The notes under the pieces were generated by a model. It saw only the letters and a list, made by a program, of their open reading frames with translations, was not told the DNA's origin and ran no database searches. A program made the translations under genes and the position numbers. A stretch of 41,918 nucleotides of DNA from Nitrospirota bacterium (GTDB taxonomy: Bacteria; Nitrospirota; Thermodesulfovibrionia; Thermodesulfovibrionales; JdFR-88), in assembly GCA_014874185.1 (NCBI GenBank), contig JACWAF010000027.1, positions 1-41,918 on the forward strand. Direction: 5' to 3'. Shown here piece by piece: positions 30,011 through 31,101 of the stretch (positions are counted from its first letter, which is position 1; every line of letters begins with the position of its first letter).

Positions 30011-30139
30011 ATAACTGATTTCCAGGTGTTTTGGCGAGGGGGGTTATTCGTCATGCCGAACTCGATTCGGCATCTGTCTTGGAGGAAGTTGTCGGGTTAC
30101 TGCGTCATGAATGTGGGTTTGAGCAATTTTCCCAACTAC

Positions 30140-30160
30140 CCCCCCTTTAGAAAAGGGGGG
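30140..30160. repeat. C6T3/A3G6 hairpin
   Basis: CCCCCCTTT (30140-30148), loop AGA, AAAGGGGGG (30152-30160): a 9-bp stem followed by another G-run. It lies between the typA promoter and the RAYT unit and resembles a dispersed hairpin rather than a terminator. Confidence 0.6.
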
Positions 30161-30183
30161 CGAGGGGGGATTTCTGGTCTTTT

Positions 30184-30213
30184 TTTGTGGGAGTCACCCG
30201 CCCACGGGTGACC
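30184..30213 (+). repeat. REP-like palindrome 1
   Basis: GTCACCCG (30193-30200), loop CCCA, CGGGTGAC (30205-30212), preceded by TTTGTGGGA. It lies four bases beyond the RAYT stop. The 30-base unit recurs as an exact inverted copy at 30785-30814 and with three changes at 31072-31101. Confidence 0.9.
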
Positions 30214-30216
30214 GCC

Positions 30217-30777
30217 CTATCTCCATGCCTCCAAAACGCTAATCGGAACTCCCGCATCTTCGCCTTTATAATAAAAACGCGCACTGGAAAACCGATACTC
30301 CTCAGGCGATGACACAAGCCCCCAGCGCTCCTGCAAGGGATTGTTATGGATGTAATTCATTTTGATGAGAAAAGTCTTCTCATTCTCAATCAGCAGATCG
30401 TCAAACCTATGCTGCCATACCTGGTATCTGTGGGCCTGCCTGTATTTCTTAGCCGATTCTTCAAAAATGGCAAGGAGCCTCTCCCTCCCATTTTCTTTAC
30501 ACCACTCAATAATCTGCTTTGCCGAGTACTCTTTCATCTGCCCCATTAGCTGCGAAACGGTTCCGTTATCGCCCATGCTTAACAGAAGATGGACGTGGTT
30601 GGGCATGATTACGAAGCCGTGCAACCCGGCCCCGAATTTTTGGACATAGAAACCGAGATTTTCCATCATAATTGCAGCAAGTGGCGGTTCATTAAAAATA
30701 CTGGTAAATTCGGTAATTGTACTGGTAAGGAAATAAGTCGCTTGGGTTCTATAGGTGATAGATGTTTTTCTTTTCAT
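30217..30777 (-). CDS. REP-associated tyrosine transposase (RAYT, IS200-like Y1)
   Basis: A 186-residue Y1 transposase. HGFVIMPNHVHLLLSM holds the metal-binding HxH (His-Val-His), GQMKEYSAKQIIEW the probable catalytic Tyr, and WQHRFDDLLIENEKTFLIKMNYIHNNPLQERWGLV the conserved C-terminal block of RAYTs. RAYTs nick single-stranded REP hairpins and are thought to spread them; they are usually single-copy domesticated relatives of IS200/IS605. REP-like palindromes in opposite orientation touch both ends of the gene, exactly the RAYT/REP arrangement. Key residues are intact, so it may be active. A standard ribosome site is not evident. Confidence 0.9.
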   Translation of the reverse strand: MKRKTSITYRTQATYFLTSTITEFTSIFNEPPLAAIMMENLGFYVQKFGAGLHGFVIMPNHVHLLLSMGDNGTVSQLMGQMKEYSAKQIIEWCKENGRERLLAIFEESAKKYRQAHRYQVWQHRFDDLLIENEKTFLIKMNYIHNNPLQERWGLVSSPEEYRFSSARFYYKGEDAGVPISVLEAWR

Positions 30778-30784
30778 TTTCTTG

Positions 30785-30814
30785 GGTCACCCGTGGGCGG
30801 GTGACTCCCACAAA
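30785..30814 (-). repeat. REP-like palindrome 2 (inverted copy)
   Basis: Exact reverse complement of the unit at 30184-30213, located eight bases upstream of the RAYT start. With copy 1 it forms perfect 30-bp terminal inverted repeats around a 0.63-kb module. Confidence 0.9.
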
Positions 30815-30856
30815 TAATATCAAAATCTCCAGTGCGAGTTTCAGGAAAAAACTTAT

Positions 30857-31042
30857 TCAGATGCCGCTTTTCCTGCCATTGCGAATAAGATATAGCCCGA
30901 AAATCATTAAATTTACCCCTATTAATTCAAAAATAGAGTTATCACTATTCATAAAAAAAGGCGAAAAGCTGACAAATATTAAAGCTAATCCTGCAAGAAA
31001 AATTGGGCTCATCGTGGAAGTGAGTGGGGGTAAAAATCCCAT
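30857..31042 (-). CDS. Possible small two-segment membrane protein
   Basis: A 61-residue frame starting MGFLPPLTSTMSPIFLAGLA with two hydrophobic segments, residues about 10-30 and 40-56, and a basic end RNGRKSGI. It lies in an AT-rich stretch between REP copies 2 and 3, with no ribosome site and no clear promoter. It may be a genuine cargo gene of the REP module, a decayed remnant, or chance. The rest of 30815-31071 shows nothing else. Confidence 0.25.
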   Translation of the reverse strand: MGFLPPLTSTMSPIFLAGLALIFVSFSPFFMNSDNSIFELIGVNLMIFGLYLIRNGRKSGI

Positions 31043-31071
31043 GCTGATATAGAGCAACGTCTTTTCATATT

Positions 31072-31101
31072 TTTGTGCGAGTCACCCGCCTGCGGGTGAC
31101 C
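31072..31101 (+). repeat. REP-like palindrome 3
   Basis: GTCACCCGC (31081-31089), loop CT, GCGGGTGAC (31092-31100), preceded by TTTGTGCGA. It has the same orientation as copy 1 and a slightly longer stem, 257 bases beyond copy 2. Confidence 0.9.

Follow-up and report, generated by a model that had tools for sequence, protein, structure and literature searches.

A single-copy RAYT-type transposase gene and its cognate REP hairpins in a Nitrospirota genome

Do a small transposase gene and the inverted palindromes at its two ends belong to one repeat system, and did the enzyme spread the palindrome through the genome? The question is raised by a 41,918-nt stretch of Nitrospirota DNA (the window, meaning the whole stretch analysed), and it was followed through the genome that holds it (G000; 2.43 Mb, 42 contigs). 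We put the probability at roughly 90% that the locus is a REPtron, in which one Y1 HUH transposase gene of TnpA-REP/RAYT type, present as a single copy and probably gained by horizontal transfer, is bracketed by inverted cognate REP hairpins. Parasite-like repeat systems of this sort are known, and this one is ordinary, though a clean example. It is unusual in two respects: canonical GTGG REPs accompany a group-5-like protein, and graded 3' tails occur alongside T-run junctions. The locus comprises the following features:

30180 to 30186, plus strand: T-run at the 5' edge of REP1; such runs mark the junctions of the REP family
30184 to 30213, plus strand: REP1, just 3' of the transposase stop codon; foot GTGG at 30187-30190, then GA, stem GTCACCCG at 30193-30200, loop CCCA at 30201-30204, stem CGGGTGAC at 30205-30212
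30217 to 30777, minus strand: RAYT/TnpA-REP gene, 186 aa, with NCBIfam, Pfam, profile, fold and Foldseek matches
30785 to 30814, minus strand: REP2, identical to REP1 in reverse complement and 7 nt ahead of the ATG
30815 to 31071, no strand: AT-rich spacer between REP2 and REP3, containing a 66-aa membrane-like frame (30857-31057, minus strand)
31072 to 31101, plus strand: REP3, a diverged copy with head GTGC, loop CCTG and an intact stem

The initial annotation had reported that a 30-base unit recurs exactly in reverse complement at 30785 and that the pair touches both ends of a Y1 gene with intact HxH and Tyr motifs. Both statements hold. REP1 and REP2 are identical over 30/30 nt, an inverted pair that by our own estimate would arise by chance in 42 kb with a probability of about 1e-9, and with their flanks they match over 33 nt at 97%. 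REP1 lies 3 nt beyond the stop codon and REP2 lies 7 nt ahead of the ATG. The cognate hairpin can be written as a T-run, (C)GTGG-GA and an 8-bp stem with a 4-nt loop; its predicted DNA fold has an energy of -9.8 kcal/mol (z -3.1). REPs are defined by GT(A/G)G placed 0-2 nt from a stem of 7-20 bp with a 2-5 nt loop (PMC6006769), and the unit, with GTGG, 2 nt spacing, 8-bp stem and 4-nt loop, is canonical in this sense.

REP3 differs from the 30-nt unit by three changes (90% identity): its head reads GTGCGA instead of GTGGGA, and its loop has CCTG in place of CCCA, which accounts for the other two. Its 8-bp stem is unchanged, and DNA folding gives the same hairpin for the REP1 and REP3 versions. 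The stem thus stays complementary, as had been noted, but not through compensatory change. The suggestion that REP3 is possibly a mobilised daughter is weaker, and its head and loop changes led us to reject a fresh one. With a broken head and a loop seen in no other copy, it is a diverged relic or relative rather than a demonstrable recent daughter. The DNA before it is indeed AT-rich, with a GC content of 0.33-0.42 over 30.8-31.3 kb against 0.55-0.65 around it, and offers, as first described, at best one small membrane frame. This 66-aa frame has no family match, and a search of 60 relatives returned a single marginal one (E 0.0012, 36 residues). It is probably not a conserved gene and, having no convincing relatives, was rejected as a partner gene. 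Beyond REP1, two further palindromic repeats lie beside the RAYT gene: GTCATGCCGAACTCGATTCGGCATC at window positions 30050-30080, which also adjoins a REP, inverted, near 52560 of contig C20, and a CCCCCC/GGGGGG hairpin at 30138-30170.

The encoded protein is a REP-associated tyrosine transposase, of the RAYT rather than the IS200 family. It scores 96.8 bits against the NCBIfam model REP_Tyr_transpos (NF047646; cut-off 80) and matches Pfam Y1_Tnp. Its HUH motif, NHVH (residues 60-63), and the catalytic Tyr142 in KMNYIHNNP are both intact, and across 17 aligned sequences they vary little or not at all. Searched against solved structures, a profile built from 17 homologues ranked E. coli TnpA-REP (4ER8) highest. 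Foldseek likewise gave 4ER8 as the best match to the predicted structure (pLDDT 89.7), followed by the ISDra2 and IS608 transposases. A plain IS200/IS605 insertion sequence, with a hairpin at each end, would share the Y1 HUH fold. Such elements, however, have several near-identical gene copies, whereas this genome holds one close copy only; the IS200 model reached 27.1 bits, far below its cut-off of 55; and the hairpins are inverted and present in 34 copies without further genes. On the low score and the single close copy we reject an IS200 element, and we regard the insertion-sequence explanation as next to negligible. Protein family and fold, the inverted REPs and the copies across the genome all uphold the description of the locus as a RAYT/REP module.

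In a maximum-likelihood tree the transposase sits on a long branch in a mostly Bacteroidota clade (33 rows, 97/93 support), together with a Zixibacterial protein of 39-40% identity. It lies apart from E. coli rayT and from TIRYT-like genes of the same family. Several relatives in the clade carry hairpins without GT(A/G)G. The residues with which the E. coli enzyme reads its GTAG head (E100, H101 and R104) are D, L and E here, so head recognition must differ from that of E. coli. Only 3/395 genomes of the phylum, its own included, have a match to the transposase at E <= 1e-15, which suggests horizontal acquisition; the gene was probably acquired in this way. The 1.5-kb flanks of the typA neighbourhood in eight relatives gave no matches to the genes flanking the RAYT locus.

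Other Y1 genes were seen in this genome and in its family. A second one in the same genome (L127; G000:C30:320198-320602, 225 aa, YVEMNP) is flanked by inverted AATTCCGGGGACACCATACTTAATTCT and matches the TIRYT type, which carries GGGGWSAS repeats. Similar flanks surround its close relative L128, from another genus of the family. Three genomes of the same family (G008, G006 and G011; loci L111, L112 and L115) encode different, E. coli-like RAYTs with YIHYNP, accompanied by REP-like inverted repeats of their own, for example GTAGGTCGGGTTAGCGCAGCGTAACCCGACA.

Across its own genome the exact REP stem occurs 34 times. Over 26 nt, 27 copies are exact and 33 lie within three mismatches, while a backwards control returned 0. 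The initial annotation had made its reading depend on other copies of the unit and on a RAYT-family match, and both exist (34 copies; NF047646). It had also expected dispersed copies, often in inverted pairs. The copies are dispersed and intergenic, but they are mostly singlets: among the 34 there are five neighbouring pairs closer than 700 bp, and outside the RAYT locus one inverted pair closer than 400 bp, a count limited by assembly breaks. None of the 34 lies in a frame of at least 130 aa, except that a 152-aa frame, running antisense to RAYT and the typA side, covers REP1. The GTGG head is kept in 30/33 copies. Among the 33 copies no change was seen at any of the 16 stem positions, against 8 at the 10 positions of head and loop (p ~4e-4, for copies that are not fully independent). 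The spread is recent-looking. One double-foot REP (L012; G000:C20:92690-92725) is a full palindrome over GTGGGAGTCACCCGCCCACGGGTGACTCCCAC except for its loop.

The intergenic placement and the stable hairpin would also be expected if the REPs were host regulatory hairpins that terminate transcription or stabilise mRNA, maintained by selection and unrelated to the transposase. At the three window copies, however, the T-run lies 5' of the hairpin and not behind it, and REP units stand exactly at both ends of the transposase gene. Moreover, the hairpin was found in none of 40 relatives from its family and order, and is therefore no old host signal. We consider a host role of this kind very improbable.

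The boundaries of the copies bear on how they spread. Nearly all have the same form, a T-run, an optional C, GTGGGA and the hairpin. One tailed copy on contig C34 (L047; G000:C34:2678-2697) has no head, and its hairpin is reversed with respect to the tail. Of 26 independent junctions, each with a different left context, 24 have at least two T before the head (background 0.088, p ~1e-23). At the 3' side, 20/34 copies share a tail of about 50 nt beginning CCGATCCGCTTTGGAACAGAAAGGTCC; the genome has 21 copies of this tail, each next to a REP, and twelve REP copies are tailless. Eighteen tailed copies have 13 different left contexts, many with REP-less paralogues in the same repeat, and the 5' end of the REP unit is thus a fixed breakpoint.

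Tailed copies sit inside a mosaic of larger dispersed repeats (53 genome matches, often at contig ends), the ends of which are rich in TTGGACAG and GGTTTGCAAACC. The mosaic repeat has joints, CTGTCCAAAATAAATTTTTTGGACAG and GGTTTGCAAACC, that are palindromic, and it interrupts the assembly at many contig ends (C1, C4, C15, C24, C34, C36-C39 and C42). The REPs could be mainly passengers of the mosaic repeat, copied by another route, with the transposase now inactive or merely housekeeping. The shared tail, its constant association with a REP and the many mosaic matches at contig ends are in keeping with this. Copying of whole repeats would not, however, fix the left junction of tailed copies at a T-run plus CGTGGG in 13 unrelated contexts, and it does not account for the twelve tailless copies. 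We judge passive carriage unlikely as the main route, though it keeps real weight: many copies share a fixed 3' tail within a larger repeat, so transposase-driven and passive spread are not fully separable.

That the host repeat resumes precisely where a copy was joined seemed at first strong proof of insertion. With a mismatched-pair control, offsets of at most 2 nt occurred in 7/20 matched and 107/590 mismatched pairs, and the resumption convinces in about three contexts only; this remains weak evidence. At another site (L009; G000:C20:45858-45945) a half REP (GTGGGAGTCACCCGCCCA) is fused via a 7-nt microhomology, CCGCCCA, to a duplicate of the neighbouring gene's end, and this duplicate leads into a T-run and a full REP. 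This is a local duplication in which the REP 5' end was joined behind CTTAT.

Within the REPtron reading, a mechanism can be proposed from the biochemistry of TnpA-REP enzymes of E. coli, Stenotrophomonas and Marinomonas, which bind the single-stranded hairpin and its head, nick through a tyrosine and transfer strands (PMC8266576; also PMC2817692). By analogy, the transposase would bind the single-stranded hairpin with its GTGG head and nick beside it, forming a Tyr-5' phosphate link, and REP-headed strands would be joined to T-rich single-stranded targets. Through REP2, close upstream of the ATG, transposase expression may also be damped, either by the protein or by the hairpin. About 60% of the copies have additionally spread, or been reshuffled, with the larger mosaic repeat that holds REP-headed units. 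A more specific proposal, which we offer tentatively and think unlikely, is one-ended spread by an enzyme of a clade thought to lack GT(A/G)G: the transposase would set only the 5' end (T-run/(C)GTGGG) and join it to T-rich targets, the 3' end being set by chance or homology. If this is true, units would grow from a bare 27-nt REP to 50-120 nt of REP plus tail, capturing neighbouring repeat DNA.

How REPs multiply has yet to be proven. This genome provides a small, young-looking population (27/33 identical) with one cognate transposase gene. Its 26 independent junctions place the 5' breakpoint behind T-runs, which is a direct prediction for cleavage assays.

Among known systems, the protein most resembles TnpA-Y1 subclass 2.6, or RAYT group 5, which was reported to have atypical and weaker hairpins without GT(A/G)G. 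That subclass has the motifs NH[LIV]H, WQ and YIH[QN]NP and clusters with Bacteroidota proteins (Quentin et al. 2018, PMC6006769). The transposase shares with it NHVH, WQ and YIHNNP, a length of about 180 aa, the tree position with Bacteroidota and the unconserved head-reading region. Unlike in subclass 2.6, the REP here is canonical, with GTGG 2 nt from the stem. Since a group-5-like RAYT goes here with canonical GTGG REPs, the rule that this group lacks such REPs needs re-examination. Judged from its motifs (NHVH/WQ/KMNYIHNNP), the protein is best called group-5-like, with a partial fit to subclass 2.4 (RAYT group 4). The 2.4 pattern NH[IFV]H/WQ/YIxNNP does fit, and the double-foot REP (G000:C20:92696) is a further likeness. 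W94 and Q95 are kept, but the conserved R104 is Glu here; D, L and E at the head-reading positions agree with 2.6 rather than with 2.4. Nor is there a REP within the gene, and the comparison is made in a tree with no certain 2.4 reference.

The REP copies resemble REPINs (Bertels and Rainey 2011, PMC3116915) in being presumably moved in trans by a RAYT. REPINs, however, are closely spaced inverted doublets, whereas singlets predominate here and inverted doublets are few. TIRYT/TIRtron systems differ: their protein is longer, and long terminal inverted repeats containing GGGGWSAS stand in place of REP hairpins. The closest counterpart is the RAYT/REPtron described with E. coli rayT (4ER8) by Nunvar et al. 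(2010, PMC2817692). The present system departs from it in lying outside the Gammaproteobacteria-type RAYTs, in its unconserved head-reading residues, in its mostly single REPs and in a copy number of 34 where more than 100 are usual. It shares with it a single-copy Y1 gene between two inverted REPs, the GT(A/G)G head, a GC-rich hairpin, many intergenic copies and a patchy distribution.
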